Source of the DNA: Chloroflexota bacterium | Lineage (GTDB): Bacteria; Chloroflexota; Anaerolineae; JAAEKA01 | Direction of reading: 5' to 3' | Assembly (NCBI GenBank): GCA_034717495.1 | Contig: JAYELL010000016.1 | Location: 1 to 50,657, forward strand | DNA length: 50,657 nucleotides | In this document: piece after piece, positions 15,246 to 24,108 of the stretch | Numbering within the stretch: position 1 is the stretch's first letter | How the letters are laid out: each line of letters starts with the position of its first letter | The notes under the pieces: generated by a model | The model's database searches: none | Told to the model about the DNA's origin: nothing | The model's input: only the letters and a program-made list of their open reading frames with translations | Position numbers and translations under genes: made by a program

Positions 15246-17156
15246 TCACGCCGCCAGGGTGGAGATATCGCCCTCGTCCTTACCCAACGCCCTTGCTTTG
15301 AGAACGCGGCGCATAATCTTTCCGGAACGGGTCTTGGGCAGCTCATCCACGAACTCGATTTTGGCCGGTACGGTGATCGGGCCAGTCTCGTGGCGCACGT
15401 GTTGCTTCAACTCGTCAACCAGCCGATCGCTTCCCTCGTAACCCTGCCGCAAGATACAATAGGCCCAGATCACATTGCCCCGCAGTTCATCGGGCATGCC
15501 GATGCAGGCCGCTTCAGCCACTGCTTCATGGCTGACCAGCGCGCTCTCGATCTCGGCCGTGCCCAGGCGATAGCCACTGACCTTGATGACATCGTCGATG
15601 CGGCCAATTATCCAGATATAGCCATCTTCATCCTTGCGGGCCGAGTCGCCAGTCAGATAGTAACCCTTGTCCTTGAATCGCTCCCAGTACTGCGAAACAT
15701 AACGCTCGGGATCACGATAGACCGTGCGCGCCATGCCAGGCCAGGGTTGTTTGACCACCAGGTAGCCATCCTCGTTGGCTTTTACCGGTTCTCCCTCCTC
15801 GTCCACCACATCCACCTCGATTCCTGGAAAAGGCCGGGTAGCCGATCCAGGCTTCAGTGCCACCGAGGGCAAGGGGGTGATCATGAAACCGCCCGTCTCG
15901 GTCTGCCACCAGGTGTCCATGATGGGACAATCCTCATCGCCGATAACCCGGTGATACCAGCGCCAGGCCTCGGGGTTGATCGGTTCGCCTACACTTCCCA
16001 GTAACCTCAAGCTGCTGAGGTCATGGCGTTTGGGCCAGGCATCGCCAAAACGCATCAGGCCCCGAATGGCGGTGGGCGCCGTATAGAGTAGGGTAATGCC
16101 ATAGTTTTCGATCATCTTCCACCAGCGATTGGGGTAAGGGAAGGTGGGTGCACCCTCGTACATGAAGCTGGTAGCGCCCAGAATCAACGGCCCGTAGACG
16201 ATATAGCTGTGGCCAGTAATCCAACCTGGATCAGCCGCACACCACCAGCGATCCTCCTCCTTGATATCAAAGACCCATTCGAGTGTGGTGCTGGTAAATA
16301 CCTGATAGCCACCGTGGGTGTGCACCAGGCCCTTGGGCTTGCCTGTGGTACCCGAAGTGTAGAGGATAAACAAAGGGTCCTCCGCATCCATGACCTCCGT
16401 CTCGGCCCTGGAAGAAGCTATGGGCAGTGCGGAAAGATCGTGATACCAGTAATCGCGGCCAGCTTCCATGTACACATCCTGCCCGGTTCGCTTGACCACG
16501 ATCACGTGTTCTACCACGGGAGAGCGACGGATGGCTTCGTCGGCAATCTCTTTCAGTTCAACGATCTTGCCCCGCAACCAGGCACCATCTGTTGTAATCA
16601 ACACGCGACTCTGGGCGTCCTCGATGCGGTCCGCCAGGGCTTGCTCGCTGAACCCACCATATACCACCGAATGCACGGCGCCGATCTTGGCACATGCCAA
16701 CATGGCCATAGGCAGCTCTGGCACACGGCCCATGTAGATCGTAACCCGATCACCTTTTTGTACACCCATGCTGCGCAGTATGTTAGCAAAACGATTGACT
16801 TCCTGCCAGAGACGGTAGTAACTGAACGATTGCTGGTCGCCAGGCTCCCCTTCCCAGATCAGGGCGATCTTATTTTTGCGCCAGGTCTCGACGTGACGAT
16901 CGAGCGCATTAAAGACGATATTGGTCTGGGCGCCGGGAAACCACTGGAAAAAAGGGGCGTTGGAGCTATCCAGAATTCGATCCGGTGGCTCGTACCAGTC
17001 CAGCGTCTGGGCCCGTTCCTGCCAAAAGGCCTCGGGATCTGCCACCGCCCGGGCGTATACCTCCTCATAATCCTTCACATGAGCCTGCGCCACAACGTCT
17101 GGTGGGGGCTCGTAGACTTCGTGCTCGGCAGCCAGGATGTCAGCTTTGCGATCCAT
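15246..17156 (-). CDS. acs: Acetate-CoA ligase (acetyl-CoA synthetase)
   Basis: A 636-residue AMP-forming acyl-CoA synthetase that makes acetyl-CoA from acetate, ATP and CoA. The P-loop 'YTSGTTGKPKG' lies near 259-269, 'WWQTETGG' further on, the hinge region 'TGDSARKDEDGY' and 'GRIDDVIKVSGYRLG' near 500-530, and the acetylatable lysine in 'SGKIMRR' near 614. The length is normal. The family usually has GHRLG where this protein has GYRLG. AAGGAG precedes the ATG at 17156 by 7 nt. A consensus promoter on the - strand (17385-17414) gives a leader of about 220 nt that contains a dispersed repeat. Propionate use cannot be excluded from sequence alone. Confidence 0.93.
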   Translation of the reverse strand: MDRKADILAAEHEVYEPPPDVVAQAHVKDYEEVYARAVADPEAFWQERAQTLDWYEPPDRILDSSNAPFFQWFPGAQTNIVFNALDRHVETWRKNKIALIWEGEPGDQQSFSYYRLWQEVNRFANILRSMGVQKGDRVTIYMGRVPELPMAMLACAKIGAVHSVVYGGFSEQALADRIEDAQSRVLITTDGAWLRGKIVELKEIADEAIRRSPVVEHVIVVKRTGQDVYMEAGRDYWYHDLSALPIASSRAETEVMDAEDPLFILYTSGTTGKPKGLVHTHGGYQVFTSTTLEWVFDIKEEDRWWCAADPGWITGHSYIVYGPLILGATSFMYEGAPTFPYPNRWWKMIENYGITLLYTAPTAIRGLMRFGDAWPKRHDLSSLRLLGSVGEPINPEAWRWYHRVIGDEDCPIMDTWWQTETGGFMITPLPSVALKPGSATRPFPGIEVDVVDEEGEPVKANEDGYLVVKQPWPGMARTVYRDPERYVSQYWERFKDKGYYLTGDSARKDEDGYIWIIGRIDDVIKVSGYRLGTAEIESALVSHEAVAEAACIGMPDELRGNVIWAYCILRQGYEGSDRLVDELKQHVRHETGPITVPAKIEFVDELPKTRSGKIMRRVLKARALGKDEGDISTLAA

Positions 17157-17384: not shown

Positions 17385-17414
17385 ATTGTAGCACCATCGG
17401 GCGAGGACTGTCAA
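17385..17414 (-). promoter_or_regulatory. Promoter of acs
   Basis: Read on the - strand: TTGACA (17414-17409), an 18-bp spacer and TACAAT (17390-17385). Transcription would begin near 17378. It begins immediately past the end of the upstream small gene (stop at 17428). Confidence 0.65.
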
Positions 17415-17427
17415 ACCAAAAGGAATT

Positions 17428-17634
17428 TTACGAGCTTGACGGCAGCATTCTGTCCGGATCGTCCAGGCAATCGGTCAGAAACTGTCGCATTTCCTCCAAG
17501 CTGCCAAAGGTCCACCTTTGTCCAGACTGGATATGTTCGATTTCACCGCACCAGGCGTCGGAATCGTTGCTTTTGGCCTCATCCTCGCTCCAGAAGCGCA
17601 CCAGGAGGGAAGCGTAGCGGTTGATTGGGGACAT
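17428..17634 (-). CDS. Small hypothetical protein (68 residues)
   Basis: A 68-residue acidic cytoplasmic protein ('RFWSEDEAKSNDSDAW', 'HIQSGQRWTFGSLEEMRQFL'). The text suggests one small alpha/beta unit, and the WTFGSLEEM..FL pattern resembles small uncharacterised proteins of environmental bacteria; no function is recognised. AGAGGA lies 4 nt before the ATG. The upstream promoter (17681-17715) is strikingly like that of the other small - strand gene at 22505-22828, which supports a real, regulated gene. Confidence 0.65.
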   Translation of the reverse strand: MSPINRYASLLVRFWSEDEAKSNDSDAWCGEIEHIQSGQRWTFGSLEEMRQFLTDCLDDPDRMLPSSS

Positions 17635-17680
17635 GGTATCCTCTGTTGGGGTGGCATTCGTCCCACGCGAACTCTGCCCC

Positions 17681-17715
17681 AGTGTACCACAGCCATGTCC
17701 ACAAAGTGTCTACAA
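17681..17715 (-). promoter_or_regulatory. Promoter with repeated TTGTRG boxes (copy 1)
   Basis: On the - strand it reads TTGTAGACAC, TTTGTGGACATG, then TGTGG followed by TACACT (-10 like). About 29 of 35 positions match the element at 22976-23010. It lies upstream of the 68-residue protein gene. An additional 10-bp inverted repeat (17705-17714 and 17739-17748) overlaps its upstream end. Confidence 0.6.
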
Positions 17716-17799
17716 CGAAAAAATCGGCCAGGCTGGCGTGTAGACACTGCGATCTAATGATCAGTGAATAATTGTCAACGATCAATGGCCAACGTTTCT

Positions 17800-20700
17800 T
17801 CACCCAGGCTTCGGCTGGTTCAGGCGGTCAAAAAGGTCTCGCACTGTTGAGTGGGAAACCCAGGCTTGATGGGCGTCCGGCAAAAGCGCCATGGCTTTGT
17901 TCACCTGCACAAGCGCTTCCTCCCGCTCTCCCAGGTCAAGATGGGTCAATCCGGCCTCGATGCGGGCCCACATTGCCTCGCTTGGCAACGCAAATTGTTC
18001 CGCAACCTCGATCCCTTCATACGCGTGCTCCCGGGCATTTTCCAGATCACCACCGAGTCGATTAGCCGCCGAAAGCGCTGTCAGTAACAGGGCAATGTTC
18101 TCGGGACACCGGCAGGCCTCAGCCACGGCGAGACCGCGACAAAGCAGGTCAACGGCATCTTCCAGAGCCCCCTGTGCCGTCGAAACGAGCCCCAATCCAG
18201 CCAGCGCGCGCGATATCCCCCGGTCATGCCGAACGGCCTGGGCAGTCTCAAGAGCAGCGTTCATCGACCCTTTCGCCTTAGCCAGGCTTCCCTGACGGTA
18301 AAATGCGAAGCCCAGGCCTAACAGTGCTGCACTAACCTCGTGTCTGCTGGGCAGGGAACGGTGAATTGCCAGAGAGTGTTCAAAAGATCGAACGGCTTCC
18401 CTGAACTCTGCCCGGTACAATAACCCAAATCCCTGGATGCATAATCCGTGAGCCTCGACGGGCCGCGCACCGATTCGGCGAGCCAGCGCCATGCCATCGG
18501 CAACGTGGCGATCGAACTCCCGAAACCTGTTGAGTTTGAGAAGGCCGAGGCCCAGATCCAACTGCGCCAGGGCGATCCGATCGGCAGCTCCCTGTTCCCG
18601 CTGAATGTGCAGCGCCTCTTCATGGCATTCAACCGCCATTTCGAAACTGGAGAGGTGGAAGTAAACATGACCCCGGACGCGCAGGATACGTCCCCGAGCG
18701 GCCTGGTCCGGACTGTCGCCAAGGGCTGCCAGTGCAGTCTCCGCAGTCTCCAGGGAAGCCAGGGCTTGTTCAGGTTGCCCGAGAAGCAGGTGAGCAAAGC
18801 CCATCTGGGCATGCAGACGGGAACTGGCCTTGGAGTCCTCCAGCGAGACTGCGACTGCCAATCCTTCCTGCGCTGCAGCAATCGCATCCACGTACCGCCC
18901 GTCCAGGTTCAAATAACGCACCTGATCAACAGACGATTGCAGAAGCAATGGATCGTTACCGGCTCTCCTTGCCAGTTGAACCAGGGCCAACAGATCGGCG
19001 TCACGCTGCGATCGTTTCCCCCTCAGGTAGCGCAGATTGGCTCGACGACTGAAGACATCCCCGCGGAGAGAACAGTAATGGACATCTGAGCAGTCGGGAT
19101 CCAGAATATCCAAAGCAGATAACATCTGGCCGAGGTGGCCCTCAGCTTTCTCCCAGGCGAACAGTCCCGATGCCGCCGTGGCAGCCAGGTCGTGATATTG
19201 CAATGCTTTCTTTGGTCTGCCGCCAATCGCAAAGTGGTGGGCCAGCGATCCAGGCGTTCCCAGATCCAGACGCTCCAGTGCCCTGCCGGCTCGACGATGC
19301 AACAACTGGCGTCGCATGGGACTCAGATTGGCTTCCACAGCCCGTCGAACGAGGTCGTGCTGAAAACGATAGTGAGTATCCTGCTCAATGAACAGTTGGC
19401 GAGCGACCAGCTCGTCGAGCCCATCCATGGTCTCCATCTCTCTTCGGCCGGCCGTCGCACGCAAGATATCGAATCCGAAGGCGGCACCCAGAACTGCGCC
19501 CGCCTCGATGATCTGACGGGCGATGGGACGCAAGCGACTCAACCGGGCAGCCACGGCCCGTTGCACTGTCTGATTGAGAGGCAACAGCAACTGCTTCTCA
19601 GGCTCCTGATCCAGATCAGAAGACTCGAGCATCGAACGCAAAGTTTCAAGCAAAAAGAAGGGGTTGCCACCGGTCGCATCATGCAGTCTTTCGGCCAGCC
19701 CGGGCCTTGCCGAAAGATGCCTGCCGCAAGCATGTAGAAGCTCCTGAATCGACGCCGCGTCGATTCCTTCGAGATGGAGTTCCAGCAGATCTGTCTGGCG
19801 CGCAAGGCTCCGTCGAAATTCGGCAAGGCGGCTGGACTCCTCGCTGCGATAGGCGCCCACCAGCAGAACTGGCTTGGAGCGGGCACAATCTGCTACATAG
19901 GTCAGCCACGCCAGAGTTGCGCCATCGGACCATTGCAGGTTGTCCATACATAGAATCAACACGCCGTCATCGGAGATCATGCCCAGCGCAAGGTGGCAGA
20001 GAGCTTCGAACAGCCGGGTGCGAGCTTCCTCGGGCTGGACAGGCAGCGGCGGCGGCAGGTCTGGCCTTGCAGTACCTAAATCGGGCAGCAGCCTGGCCGC
20101 CTCCGCGAGCCAGATAACGGGGACACGGTGCAAGACATCAGACAGATCGCCGGCGGATCGCAACGCCTGGACCACAGGATGATAGGGCAAGTCAAGATTG
20201 CCTTTCTGAGAGACTGCCATCAGAACAAGCGCGGGATCAGGCAGGCTGGACGCAAATTCCTGCATCAGTCGTGTCTTGCCAATGCCAGCCTGTCCAGAGA
20301 TCAATACCAGTCCCCCATCCCCCTGGCGGGCTCGCGTAAAAGCCTCCCGCATCTCTTCAAGGACACCGTTGCGACCGACCATGGGCAACTGAAGGCCGGG
20401 CGGAGTCACCCATGCCCTGTCGGATGGCACTTCCCGGTCGACGATGGTTTCGCGTCCCAGCACGGTTAGATAAACCGAGCGTGTTTCCGGCAGTGGCCGG
20501 ACGCCCAACTCCCGCTCCAGAGTCGCGACACAGGCTTCATATTGGCGCATCGCAGCCTGCCGATCCCCACGCGCTGCATACAGAGTCATCAGATTCCGGT
20601 GCATTTGCTCGGACATCGCATCCATTACCAGATAACGCTGGGCAAGATCGATGGCCCTATCCAGTTGCTGTCGTTGGGTGCATTGCTCGACCAGCGCTGA

Positions 20701-21177
20701 AAGGGCAGTGAGGTAGCGCTGCTCCCAGTAGCGCTGTTCGCCAAGCATCCACGCTTCGTATTCGGGGCTTTCGGGAAGCGCAAATCCGGACAAAAAACTG
20801 CCGCGATAGAGCAGAATAGCTTGGTCGAGAGAGGAAACCTCTCCTGCCACATTGCCCTCTCGATAGCAGCGTTCAAAGGCGATCGTATCGGACCAGATGC
20901 GGCGACGGTCAAGGCTGATATCTTCGCCGTCAGAAATGAGCATATCCGGGTGGGGAAGCGCAGTGCGAAGCAGGGAGAGGACACGGCTAAGATTGCGCCG
21001 GGCATTGTGTTCAGGGATGTCGGACCAAAAGAGAAAACAGATGGTTTCCCTGGGAGCCAGCTCCATGCGGGTGGCGAGGCGATACAGCAGCGCGCGTGCC
21101 TGCCGCCGTGGAATGTTGAAACGCCTGTCATCCCAATGGATTTGAGGGGGCCCCAGCAAATATAGTCGTAAGGGCAT
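17800..21177 (-). CDS. SARP/BTAD-type transcriptional regulator with AAA ATPase and TPR domains
   Basis: A 1125-residue signal-transduction regulator. An N-terminal winged-helix-like DNA-binding part ('LYLLGPPQIHWDDRRFNIPR', then RRQARALLYRLA) leads into a BTAD helical domain to about residue 250. Next comes a STAND/AAA ATPase with P-loop 'GQAGIGKTRLMQEF' near 290 and an aspartate-rich Walker B ('VLILCMDNLQWSDG'). TPR-like helices fill the second half. This is the AfsR/SARP plan, common in Chloroflexota; the ligand and targets are unknown. The ATG at 21177 is preferred over 21222 because AGGA lies 6 nt upstream. A TACAAT at 21242-21237 could be its -10 box, with a weak -35. It stands alone. 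Confidence 0.85.
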   Translation of the reverse strand: MPLRLYLLGPPQIHWDDRRFNIPRRQARALLYRLATRMELAPRETICFLFWSDIPEHNARRNLSRVLSLLRTALPHPDMLISDGEDISLDRRRIWSDTIAFERCYREGNVAGEVSSLDQAILLYRGSFLSGFALPESPEYEAWMLGEQRYWEQRYLTALSALVEQCTQRQQLDRAIDLAQRYLVMDAMSEQMHRNLMTLYAARGDRQAAMRQYEACVATLERELGVRPLPETRSVYLTVLGRETIVDREVPSDRAWVTPPGLQLPMVGRNGVLEEMREAFTRARQGDGGLVLISGQAGIGKTRLMQEFASSLPDPALVLMAVSQKGNLDLPYHPVVQALRSAGDLSDVLHRVPVIWLAEAARLLPDLGTARPDLPPPLPVQPEEARTRLFEALCHLALGMISDDGVLILCMDNLQWSDGATLAWLTYVADCARSKPVLLVGAYRSEESSRLAEFRRSLARQTDLLELHLEGIDAASIQELLHACGRHLSARPGLAERLHDATGGNPFFLLETLRSMLESSDLDQEPEKQLLLPLNQTVQRAVAARLSRLRPIARQIIEAGAVLGAAFGFDILRATAGRREMETMDGLDELVARQLFIEQDTHYRFQHDLVRRAVEANLSPMRRQLLHRRAGRALERLDLGTPGSLAHHFAIGGRPKKALQYHDLAATAASGLFAWEKAEGHLGQMLSALDILDPDCSDVHYCSLRGDVFSRRANLRYLRGKRSQRDADLLALVQLARRAGNDPLLLQSSVDQVRYLNLDGRYVDAIAAAQEGLAVAVSLEDSKASSRLHAQMGFAHLLLGQPEQALASLETAETALAALGDSPDQAARGRILRVRGHVYFHLSSFEMAVECHEEALHIQREQGAADRIALAQLDLGLGLLKLNRFREFDRHVADGMALARRIGARPVEAHGLCIQGFGLLYRAEFREAVRSFEHSLAIHRSLPSRHEVSAALLGLGFAFYRQGSLAKAKGSMNAALETAQAVRHDRGISRALAGLGLVSTAQGALEDAVDLLCRGLAVAEACRCPENIALLLTALSAANRLGGDLENAREHAYEGIEVAEQFALPSEAMWARIEAGLTHLDLGEREEALVQVNKAMALLPDAHQAWVSHSTVRDLFDRLNQPKPG

Positions 21178-21300
21178 GATCGTCCTGGCGGTTGCCCTGA
21201 ACCTGAAACGATGAGCTGCCATCCTTCGATAGTCTCATTGTATCACATCTTGTGCCAGATTTCTACAGGTTGTTCGAATCCTTCAGATGTACACTCCCCG

Positions 21301-21322
21301 CTGGCGGGGGATGCCCCGCCAG
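21301..21322 (-). terminator. GC-rich hairpin after the MBL-fold hydrolase gene
   Basis: Perfect 9-bp arms, CTGGCGGGG (21301-21309) and CCCCGCCAG (21314-21322), with a 4-nt loop lie 19 nt past the stop codon. No T-run follows, so termination is only likely. Confidence 0.45.
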
Positions 21323-21340
21323 GTAGCTGGCCGCGATCAC

Positions 21341-22246
21341 CTAAACCGTCTGCTCAAATTTGCGCAGATATCGAATCAGGCCCGGCACCTCCATGAAGGA
21401 AGGCACGGCGACCTCATAGCGGGCGATCGCGTCAGCATCCGCGCCATCGGCCGCCGCCTGTTCAGCAACCCAGTGGGCGAAGCTCTCGCCGATCGCCTCG
21501 ACAGAAAAGCCTTCCTGCAGGCCCTGGCGGACGAAGTCCACGTAGATATCCAGCAGTTGTCCAACGGCATCGAGGTGTTCGATGGGGTCACTGGTCTGCG
21601 CCACGGGGCCGAAATGGGTTGGCAACAATCGATCGGGCTGAAGTTCCTGCAGGCGAAAAAGACTGCCCTTCCAGGCTGGGATATCGATCTCCGGAGGTGG
21701 GGTCGGCAAACGCAGGTGGGTCTGGCCCGGAAGGCGCACACCGGCAACATCACCGGTGAAACAGAGCCCGTCCAGCAGGTAGGACATATGGTGGTAGGCA
21801 TGACCCGGGGTATCGACGGCCGCCAGCCGCAGGCCGGCTGCCTCGATGACATCGCCGTCCTGCAGGGCATGAACCTGGCCGGCCGGTACGGCGATGGTCT
21901 CACCCCACAGGGGATCCATCAGGTCGCCGTAGATGCGGCTGGCGGAAGCAAGCAGCCGGCTGGGGTCGGCCAGATGCCGCGCGCCAACATGATGCACGTG
22001 GACCGTCGCGCCCGACTCTCGAGCGACCCAGCCGGCGGCACCCGCGTGATCCAGGTGGATATGGGTGACCAGCACGTGGCTAATCTGGGCCAACTCGATG
22101 CCAAGAAGGTTGAGTTTCACCTTGAGATTCTGGAAGGTGGAGGCAGGACCGGTTTCGATCAAAACGAAACCAGCAGGCCCACGTACAAGATAACTGGCGA
22201 TAACCTCTGAGGTATCCTGAAAATCGAGATCAAGAACATCAAGCAT
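21341..22246 (-). CDS. Metallo-beta-lactamase-fold hydrolase
   Basis: 301 residues with the zinc site 'THIHLDHAG' (His62, His64, Asp66, His67), further ligands in 'DTPGHAYHHMSY', 'FTGDVAG', and 'LLPTHFGP' near 195. The C-terminal helical part ('DPIEHLDAVGQLLDIYVDFV') resembles the glyoxalase II-like/RNase Z-independent MBL group often annotated simply as MBL-fold hydrolase; the substrate is unknown. The start at 22246 is preferred: GGGAG lies upstream and the fold begins at once, whereas the earlier ATG (22300) has no ribosome site and overlaps the predicted promoter. It is the only gene between its promoter (22289-22317) and a downstream hairpin. Confidence 0.85.
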   Translation of the reverse strand: MLDVLDLDFQDTSEVIASYLVRGPAGFVLIETGPASTFQNLKVKLNLLGIELAQISHVLVTHIHLDHAGAAGWVARESGATVHVHHVGARHLADPSRLLASASRIYGDLMDPLWGETIAVPAGQVHALQDGDVIEAAGLRLAAVDTPGHAYHHMSYLLDGLCFTGDVAGVRLPGQTHLRLPTPPPEIDIPAWKGSLFRLQELQPDRLLPTHFGPVAQTSDPIEHLDAVGQLLDIYVDFVRQGLQEGFSVEAIGESFAHWVAEQAAADGADADAIARYEVAVPSFMEVPGLIRYLRKFEQTV

Positions 22247-22288
22247 AGTGTAGAAGACTCCCTGGTTTAGGATCGGAACAGCCAGAAC

Positions 22289-22317
22289 ATTCTGCCCCAT
22301 GAAGAGGGAAAAGTCAA
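22289..22317 (-). promoter_or_regulatory. Promoter of the MBL-fold hydrolase gene
   Basis: On the - strand: TTGACT (22317-22312), a 17-bp spacer and CAGAAT (22294-22289). It lies just past a terminator for the previous gene. Confidence 0.5.
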
Positions 22318-22352
22318 TGCCATCGAAGACCTTGCAGGGGAAACGAAAAAAT

Positions 22353-22391
22353 GAAAAAGGGACCTGCCGGCAAATATTCCACCAGGTCCCT
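22353..22391 (-). terminator. Rho-independent terminator of the 107-residue protein gene
   Basis: On the - strand: AGGGACCTG (22391-22383), a 16-nt loop, CAGGTCCCT (22366-22358), and then TTTTT followed by further T-rich sequence. This is the clearest intrinsic terminator on this strand. The gap 22301-22504 holds nothing else. Confidence 0.8.
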
Positions 22392-22504
22392 GCAGTTGGC
22401 GCTATCAGTAACCAGATTGGCGCTAAGGTACCGCCGAACAGTCTGCGGCAGACAATGATGCCATTGCCTGCTTTTCCAGCGTAGTTCCGACGCTGTTGCA
22501 GCGC

Positions 22505-22828
22505 CTAGCTTTCGCCGTCACCTACCGGCTCGGTCTGGGTCGCTACGTAGCCCACCTTGGTCGACTCGATGAAACCAAAGTAGAGCGGTTTCTCGTTGCG
22601 CATGATGTCCAGGACGCTGTCGAACCTGGACATGGGGTAGCGCAGCTCTACCCGAGGTCCCTTGGCATTGATGGGCACGTTGTTTTCGTCGTTGTAGAAG
22701 ACACAGCTCATGACGTTTTGACCGCCATGGTAGCAGTGAATGAAAGCGCCAATCGTATCGCTGGTGGCGCTGCGTCCATAAAACACAGCTTTGTAGCTGG
22801 TAATGGGGGAAGAGGAGAAGTCGGCCAT
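22505..22828 (-). CDS. Hypothetical protein (107 residues)
   Basis: A 107-residue protein with no signal peptide or membrane segment ('FYGRSATSDTIGAFIHCYHG', 'MSCVFYNDENNVPIN', 'RVELRYPMSRFDSVLDIMRN'). It looks like one small beta-rich domain; no family is recognised. The ATG at 22828 is chosen because AAAGGAG lies 6 nt upstream; an in-frame ATG at 22864 lacks this. The gene is framed by a clear terminator and by a promoter that closely resembles the one upstream of the 68-residue protein at 17428-17634, suggesting common control. Confidence 0.75.
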   Translation of the reverse strand: MADFSSSPITSYKAVFYGRSATSDTIGAFIHCYHGGQNVMSCVFYNDENNVPINAKGPRVELRYPMSRFDSVLDIMRNEKPLYFGFIESTKVGYVATQTEPVGDGES

Positions 22829-22975
22829 TTTGTGCTCCTTTCGGCCAGGTTTTTCGAGCTTCAAGTTCTTTGCCGGTCAGATCATCAGTTCATTTTTCAC
22901 TCCTTTCATTCTCACTTCTGCCAACGGCAGCATGGATCAGAATTCGTCGTGGCCGCCTGACGCGGCATTGACTCC

Positions 22976-23010
22976 ATTATACCACACCAATGCCTACAAA
23001 ATGCCTACAA
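22976..23010 (-). promoter_or_regulatory. Promoter with tandem TTGTAGGCATT boxes (copy 2)
   Basis: On the - strand two identical, abutting 11-mers TTGTAGGCATT (23010-23000 and 22999-22989) are followed by GGTGTGG and TATAAT (22981-22976), which has an extended TGG-TATAAT form. It drives the 107-residue protein gene. The 11-bp period is one helical turn, as expected for a protein binding side by side. It resembles 17681-17715. Confidence 0.65.
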
Positions 23011-23036
23011 GAGTGGCGGACTCTCCTTGTTTCCGC

Positions 23037-23042
23037 TATAAT
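23037..23042 (+). promoter_or_regulatory. -10 box for the HypE-like gene
   Basis: A perfect TATAAT lies 43 nt before the ATG at 23086. No convincing -35 box is visible at 16-18 bp, so it is either activator-dependent or fortuitous. It is divergent from the - strand promoter at 22976-23010. Confidence 0.35.
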
Positions 23043-23085
23043 GCCCAGCAGTTCACCAAATAGCTCTCGGAGTGAGTGGAATATC

Positions 23086-24108
23086 ATGGATCAGAACATG
23101 AACCTGCCGGCGGGTAAGCTACCCCCCGCGCTGCTGGATGGCCTGCTCAGGCGCTTCGCGCCCAGTGACCCGCGCCTGATCGTTGGACCGCAGATGGGCG
23201 AGGACGCCGCCGTGATCGACTTCGGCGATCGCTATCTGGTCGCCAAGACCGATCCGATCACCTTCGCCACCGACGAGATCGGCTGGTATGCCGTCAATGT
23301 CAACGCCAACGACATTGCCGTCATGGGTGCCAAGCCCCGCTGGTTCCTTGCTACGGTGTTGTTACCTGAGGGCAAGGCCACGGTCGGACAGGCCGAGTCG
23401 ATCTACGGGCAGATTGCGGGTGCCTGCCAACAATTGGGGGTTGCACTGGCCGGGGGACACACGGAGATCACCGTGGGATTGGACCGTCCCATCATCTCCG
23501 GCTGCATGCTGGGGGAAGTGTCGCCGGAAAACCTGGTCCGCTCCTCGGGCATGCGCCCGAACGACTTGATTATTCTGGCGCGGGGTATTCCCATCGAGGG
23601 TACAGCAATCATCGCCCGGGAAAAGCAAGGGGATTTATTGGCTCGGGGTTACGGGGCCAGGCTGCTGCAGCGGGCGCAGGCCTTTCTTCACGATCCTGGT
23701 ATCAGCGTGGTCGAGGCGGCCCACCTGGCAGTGGAGGCAGTGCCGGTCCATGCCATGCACGATCCCACCGAGGGTGGTTTGGCAACGGGTCTCTGGGAGA
23801 TGGCAATGGCATCGGAAGTGGGGATCGATATCGACTTTGATGCGGTGCCGGTGGCGCCTGAGAGTGAAGCCCTCTGTGCGGTCTACGGGCTGGACCCGCT
23901 GGGCACCATCGCCTCAGGGGCTCTGGTGATAGTCCTGGCGCCCGAAAACGTGGATCAGTTGCTACTGACTTTTGACCGGGCGGGGATTCCCGCCCGAATC
24001 ATTGGGCGCGTCACCGGCACGCCTGGAGAAATGAAAGCAAAACGGGGCGGCCAGGCCATCGCCTATCCCCGTTTTTCGGTGGACGAAATCGCCCGGCTCT
24101 TCAGTTGA
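23086..24108 (+). CDS. AIR synthase-related protein (HypE/PurM-like ATPase)
   Basis: 340 residues of the PurM/HypE/ThiL/SelD superfamily. The N-terminal ATP site has 'GEDAAVIDFGDRYLVAKTDPITF' spread over about residues 40-63, then 'VNANDIAVMGAKPRW', and 'GGHTEIT' near 125; the C-terminal domain has 'HDPTEGGLATGLWEM'. It resembles HypE, but the C-terminal Pro-Arg-Ile-Cys tail needed for NiFe-hydrogenase cyanide chemistry is absent (it ends in ARLFS) and no hyp genes are nearby, so it is probably an uncharacterised paralogue. The ATG at 23086 is preferred (GAGTGG upstream); the frame stays open to 22990. Confidence 0.8.
   Translation: MDQNMNLPAGKLPPALLDGLLRRFAPSDPRLIVGPQMGEDAAVIDFGDRYLVAKTDPITFATDEIGWYAVNVNANDIAVMGAKPRWFLATVLLPEGKATVGQAESIYGQIAGACQQLGVALAGGHTEITVGLDRPIISGCMLGEVSPENLVRSSGMRPNDLIILARGIPIEGTAIIAREKQGDLLARGYGARLLQRAQAFLHDPGISVVEAAHLAVEAVPVHAMHDPTEGGLATGLWEMAMASEVGIDIDFDAVPVAPESEALCAVYGLDPLGTIASGALVIVLAPENVDQLLLTFDRAGIPARIIGRVTGTPGEMKAKRGGQAIAYPRFSVDEIARLFS

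Follow-up and report, generated by a model that had tools for sequence, protein, structure and literature searches.

Two similar promoter elements on either side of a SARP-family gene

The window, by which we mean the whole 50,657-nucleotide stretch analysed, is contig 16 in the draft genome of a Chloroflexota bacterium, which totals 5.0 Mb in 120 contigs. A first-pass annotation of its minus strand had aligned two 35-bp promoter elements without gaps, each upstream of a single small gene, and had described the second copy as perfect abutting 11-mers. We recovered the same sequences at the same coordinates, with 27 of 35 positions identical, and found both the gene arrangement and the perfect repeat as described (Table 1). 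In both copies a pair of 11-bp direct repeats overlaps the -35 position and a -10 hexamer follows; in copy 1 the -10 lies 17 bp past the start of the second repeat, with that repeat counted as TGTGGACATGG. Copy 1 is the weaker repeat, which counts against reading it as a SARP operator.

Table 1. Coordinates of the paired elements, the intervening regulator gene and the candidate target genes
Feature	Position	Strand	Description
Copy 1, whole 35 bp	17715-17681	-	TTGTAGACACTTTGTGGACATGGCTGTGGTACACT
Copy 1, layout	17715-17681	-	TTGTAGACACT TTGTGGACATG GCTGTGG TACACT
SARP-type box 1	17694..17715	-	11-bp direct repeats TTGTAGACACT (17715-17705) and TTGTGGACATG (17704-17694); own-genome scan with reversed-pattern control
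Box 1 -10	17681..17686	-	TACACT; TGTGG upstream, extended -10
Copy 2, whole 35 bp	23010-22976	-	TTGTAGGCATTTTGTAGGCATTGGTGTGGTATAAT
Copy 2, layout	23010-22976	-	TTGTAGGCATT TTGTAGGCATT GGTGTGG TATAAT
SARP-type box 2	22989..23010	-	two perfect abutting 11-mers, TTGTAGGCATT
Box 2 -10	22976..22981	-	TATAAT; TGTGG upstream
Large SARP gene	17800-21222	-	OmpR-type wHTH, BTAD (PF03704), AAA_16 with Walker A GQAGIGKT, TPRs; Pfam and profile matches
68-aa gene	17428-17634	-	unnamed beta-beta-beta-alpha small-protein family (..RFW.E...W.GEIEHIQSG...F..L..FL); SARP-adjacent candidate target
107-aa gene	22505..22828 (ATG 22828)	-	function not assigned; second candidate target
Intrinsic-terminator-like hairpin with T-run	22346..22390	-	after 107-aa gene, GGGACCTGGTGG..CCGGCAGGTCCCTTTTTCATTTTTT; by inspection

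The large gene between the two copies encodes a SARP. The earlier annotation had overlooked this neighbour as a regulator, and with it the 11-bp repeat and -10 geometry as a SARP signature. The protein carries an OmpR-type DNA-binding domain followed by a BTAD domain (70.9 bits against a cut-off of 22.1), then an NTPase domain at residues 281-455 and TPR matches at about residues 800-1115; Pfam reported neither NB-ARC itself nor a receiver domain. A profile built from 27 related SARP domains matches AfsR over the whole SARP domain (E 1.2e-26; 8hvr/8k60/8jke) and EmbR over its full length (2fez), and weakly matches the response regulators 1p2f and 1kgs. This domain profile was needed to reach AfsR, as a PDB search with the whole SARP as a single sequence returned TPR proteins only. 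An extended -10 (TGTGATACAAT) at 21232-21242 (minus strand) lies only about 10 bp ahead of the annotated start, and we therefore propose that the true start is perhaps Met16 at 21177 (MPLRLYLLGPP). We rejected autoregulation by the SARP, since the region upstream of its gene has this extended -10 but no paired box in register.

The 68-aa gene lies just 3' of the SARP gene, with box 1 in its promoter in the interval between them (17634-17800). On its far side, a near-consensus sigma-70 promoter (TTGACA-18-TACAAT, 17385-17414, minus strand) ahead of an acetyl-CoA synthetase gene (15246-17156) sets that gene apart from the 68-aa gene. Box 2 lies within a divergent intergenic region (22976-23086), so the SARP could act in both directions; the plus-strand gene there, of the AIRS family, has a TATAAT at about 23037 and probably starts at ATG 23086. 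The 107-aa gene is probably transcribed alone, because a terminator-like hairpin and T-run follow it.

Box promoters recur in the genome and across the class

The match between the two copies by itself proves nothing, since about 0.56 pairs matching at 27 of 35 positions are expected by chance in a window of 50.7 kb. A tool-derived expectation of 0.01 for the pair was dismissed as circular, the pattern having been written from the same two copies. The evidence that the elements are real comes instead from genome scans and from the fixed position of the -10. We scanned the source genome and 150 genomes of the class with IUPAC patterns allowing mismatches, in place of a true position matrix. In the source genome the repeat pattern gave 7 sites, 6 with a good -10, and the reversed control none; across the class it gave 26 sites in 19 of the 150 genomes, and the reversed control 2. 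These counts bear out the suggestion of a wider regulon, and the sites recur upstream of small and secreted-protein genes rather than being scattered or inside genes: in the source genome, ORFs overlapping a box amount to short mechanical frames and a 5' extension of the divergent AIRS ORF.

The scan pattern excluded the -10, and a -10 nevertheless stands at one fixed offset in 23 of the 26 class-wide sites (88%), whereas the mean for other offsets is 8%. It is of the ordinary extended sigma-70 type, TG-N-TATAMT, with TG-N preceding the hexamer in most sites. No -35 was found in the class-wide box promoters, where the best match averages 1.2 of 6 positions versus 2.3 in random sequence; with an extended -10 and no -35, these promoters look activator-dependent. 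In 19 of 21 tabulated Chloroflexota promoters, 17 bp separate the start of the second repeat from the -10; the tabulation permitted 17-19 bp and assigned ties to 17. The candidate target promoters share 11-bp direct repeats over the -35 position at a fixed distance from the -10.

Genes behind boxes in the source genome comprise the two window genes, a 109-aa ABM-like gene (contig 31), a secreted lipoprotein gene (contig 64) and a metallopeptidase gene whose product has an FTP propeptide (contig 108), with one or two further, less clear sites. Class-wide, they encode small proteins (beta3-alpha, ABM-like, DUF3303, SCO4226-like and polyketide-cyclase-like) and also secreted proteins with CBM96 or a peptidase propeptide; around the two window copies we saw no biosynthetic cluster. 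DUF3303-like and ABM-like small genes recur after a TTTGTAG box in several genomes (loci L125, L127, L135, L139 and L140); together with the SARP they may make up a conserved gene neighbourhood. Relatives of the 107-aa gene occur in only 4 of 60 genomes. Two of these (L035, L036) have no such box and a third (L037) has, by inspection, an ordinary TTGACG-17-TATAAT promoter, and a general link between the 107-aa family and SARPs was rejected on these grounds.

Boxes accompany one SARP clade, and box sequence varies with the SARP DNA-binding domain

The TTTGTRG box is present in 13 of 18 genomes with a close SARP relative (above 185 bits) versus 6 of 132 others (Fisher p 1e-10). Among these six, three lack a proper -10 (G024, G069, G099) and three have fragmentary or next-closest relatives (G054, G065, G107); in five genomes that do have a close relative, no box was found with up to one mismatch allowed. 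By coordinates, the box sits just 3' of the SARP gene in G006, G011, G018, G044, G053, G065, G075 and G092.

Across 21 promoters, box similarity tracks identity of the DNA-binding domain (r 0.35, Mantel p=0.0005, a value that is optimistic because the compared loci share ancestry). It does not track BTAD identity (r 0.11, p=0.15); the partial r is 0.43. Recognition-helix type and box class go together: (S/T)(R/H)LL-type helices accompany TGTRG, STALWH with TTTTGATA or TTTGAGAC, RRHLHQ with TTGGACGC and RQALAQ with TTTCACG. For a held-out test we looked for two further box classes using patterns only, and then inspected the flanks for SARPs. All five box-adjoining SARPs found in this way carry the expected recognition helix (STALWH/STSLWH or RRHLH). 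The test is limited to these five cases because the other 11 sites have no SARP in the stretch examined; several of the 11 also lack a -10 and may be chance matches.

The 68-residue protein belongs to a widespread small-protein family

Relatives of the 68-aa protein occur in 96 of the 150 class genomes. Its predicted fold is beta-beta-beta-alpha (pLDDT 82). Pfam searches with 61 family members gave no match beyond one chance hit, Foldseek returned nothing below E 0.68, and the best VIA-align match was E. coli YaiA (Z 4.5). A SARP lies within 1 kb at 27 of the 45 loci with enough flanking sequence, in 26 cases directly upstream on the same strand and usually 100-300 bp away; the remaining 18 relatives have none within 1 kb. 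Upstream of the small-gene relatives, 11-bp repeats with a -10 are found in 45%, versus 1.3% for shuffles, and periods of 8-10 and 12-15 give 0-5%. The repeat sequence differs by locus (TTTGTAG, TTTTGATA, TTTGGACGC, GATTCACG, GAGACGC).

Two further family members in the source genome (L075, contig 38; L120, contig 34) are among those with no adjoining SARP, and L120 has a partial AGACGC repeat ahead of TACCCT. At L071, L067 and L095, the small gene is preceded by a run of three or four GAGACGC-type repeats at intervals of about 11 bp. In L082, L089, L093 and L115 the SARP and small genes are oppositely oriented, and repeats of the TTTCACG, TTTACGA or GGGACGC type lie between the two or close by. 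A weak relative outside Chloroflexota, in Thermosyntropha lipolytica (L053), has a possible BTAD-type ORF about 5.6 kb upstream.

Discussion

Our best reading is a SARP regulon that appears to be wired like afsR-afsS, around a small protein apparently unrelated to AfsS. We put the probability at roughly 86% that the two elements are operators of the SARP encoded between them, which would activate a small regulon from sigma-A promoters that lack a -35. We propose that two SARP domains, lying side by side, bind the 11-bp repeats, replace the missing -35 contact and keep sigma-A RNA polymerase on the extended -10 (TGTGN-TATAMT). The SARP would in this way switch on the genes for the 68-aa and 107-aa proteins, along with at least four or five more elsewhere in the genome. 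Its AAA and TPR parts presumably gate it upon a signal. The common activator that the first-pass annotation had invoked thus gains a candidate, and the alternative sigma factor it had offered in its place becomes unneeded: the -10 is ordinary, and only the -35 is missing, at the position where the SARP pair would sit.

The element is a conserved bipartite promoter with fixed spacing, which favours an alternative, ECF-type sigma factor. We nonetheless regard such a factor as very improbable, given the standard extended sigma-70 -10 and the variation in repeat sequence across loci at constant period and spacing, which is the behaviour of an activator and not of a sigma factor. PhoB and SARPs have the winged-helix fold in common, and PHO boxes are likewise 11-bp direct repeats. 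The boxes might accordingly be bound by an OmpR/PhoB-type response regulator in a PHO-box-like system; Streptomyces PhoP and AfsR do bind overlapping repeats at afsS (PMC6988585), and our SARP profile weakly reaches response regulators. This is unlikely in our judgement: we saw no response-regulator gene between the two copies, the repeat-bearing promoter lies directly 3' of SARP genes, and both the presence of the box and its sequence follow the SARPs, the former tracking one clade and the latter the recognition helix.

The SARP might also bind the boxes and repress, with the small protein closing a feedback loop by limiting the SARP. A dedicated small gene beside the regulator would suit a feedback partner, and the boxes overlap the -35 and spacer region. 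We think repression quite unlikely, however, as there is no -35 to block, the promoters look activator-dependent, and AfsR activates from the equivalent position (PMC10936776). That the similarity is due to chance or to a dispersed DNA repeat is hardly credible despite the poor significance of the bare match: the reversed-pattern controls and the fixed -10 offset led us to reject such an origin, and the fixed -10, the promoter position and the divergent flanks together exclude a copied repeat.

Beyond this locus, a cassette of regulator, box and small gene recurs across Chloroflexota, with matching variants of regulator and box, as judged from comparison of the genomes. A broader proposal, which we advance tentatively and at somewhat less than even odds, is that Chloroflexota possess a lineage-wide and much-diversified set of afsR-afsS-like cassettes, each pairing a large SARP with its own operator class 3' of the gene and a beta3-alpha protein as dedicated effector or feedback partner, and that the operator class can be read from six central recognition-helix residues. 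SARPs are known almost wholly from the control of antibiotics in Streptomyces. A 2024 review calls them genus-specific (PMC10972967), and the open-licence literature we searched held no study of SARPs in Chloroflexota, which is weak as a sign of absence. Here, in a phylum that is mostly uncultured, the sequence lets one identify regulator, operator and target, and the many natural regulator-operator pairs make SARP DNA specificity directly testable. The cassettes also offer a way into a family of small proteins, as yet unnamed, that about two thirds of the sampled class genomes contain.

The closest known counterpart is AfsR-afsS of Streptomyces. AfsR is likewise a large SARP with the same domain order (wHTH-BTAD-NTPase-TPR), although the ATPase here scores as AAA_16, and it directly activates an adjoining small gene from a pair of 11-bp direct repeats that overlap the -35 (PMC10936776, PMC10972967). 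An AfsR dimer occupies these repeats, at -40 to -30 and -29 to -19, with its subunits side by side, and also holds sigma region 4 (PMC10936776). If the -10 hexamer is placed at -12 to -7, the afs box has the same spacing as the Chloroflexota promoters, 17 bp from the start of the second repeat to the hexamer. The box sequences differ (CGTT(T/C)ATCGNN in Streptomyces versus TTGTAGRCATT here), and where the recognition helix of AfsR has T88 and R92, our SARP has R and L. The small proteins differ as well: AfsS, a sigma-like protein of 63 residues, contains three 12-aa repeats (PMC2267785), whereas by inspection the 68-aa protein has no 12-aa internal repeats and its predicted fold is beta-beta-beta-alpha. 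The GAGACGC repeat arrays at three of the small-gene loci resemble three-repeat SARP sites of Streptomyces. Pathway-specific SARPs such as ActII-ORF4 and DnrI also activate through direct repeats near the -35, in their case heptamers often one helix turn apart (PMC10972967), but act in antibiotic clusters, while the candidate targets here encode small ABM, DUF3303, SRPBCC-like and secreted proteins. EmbR of Mycobacterium tuberculosis shares the SARP domain, as its full-length profile match indicates, and has an FHA domain where the Chloroflexota SARP has its AAA and TPR parts.
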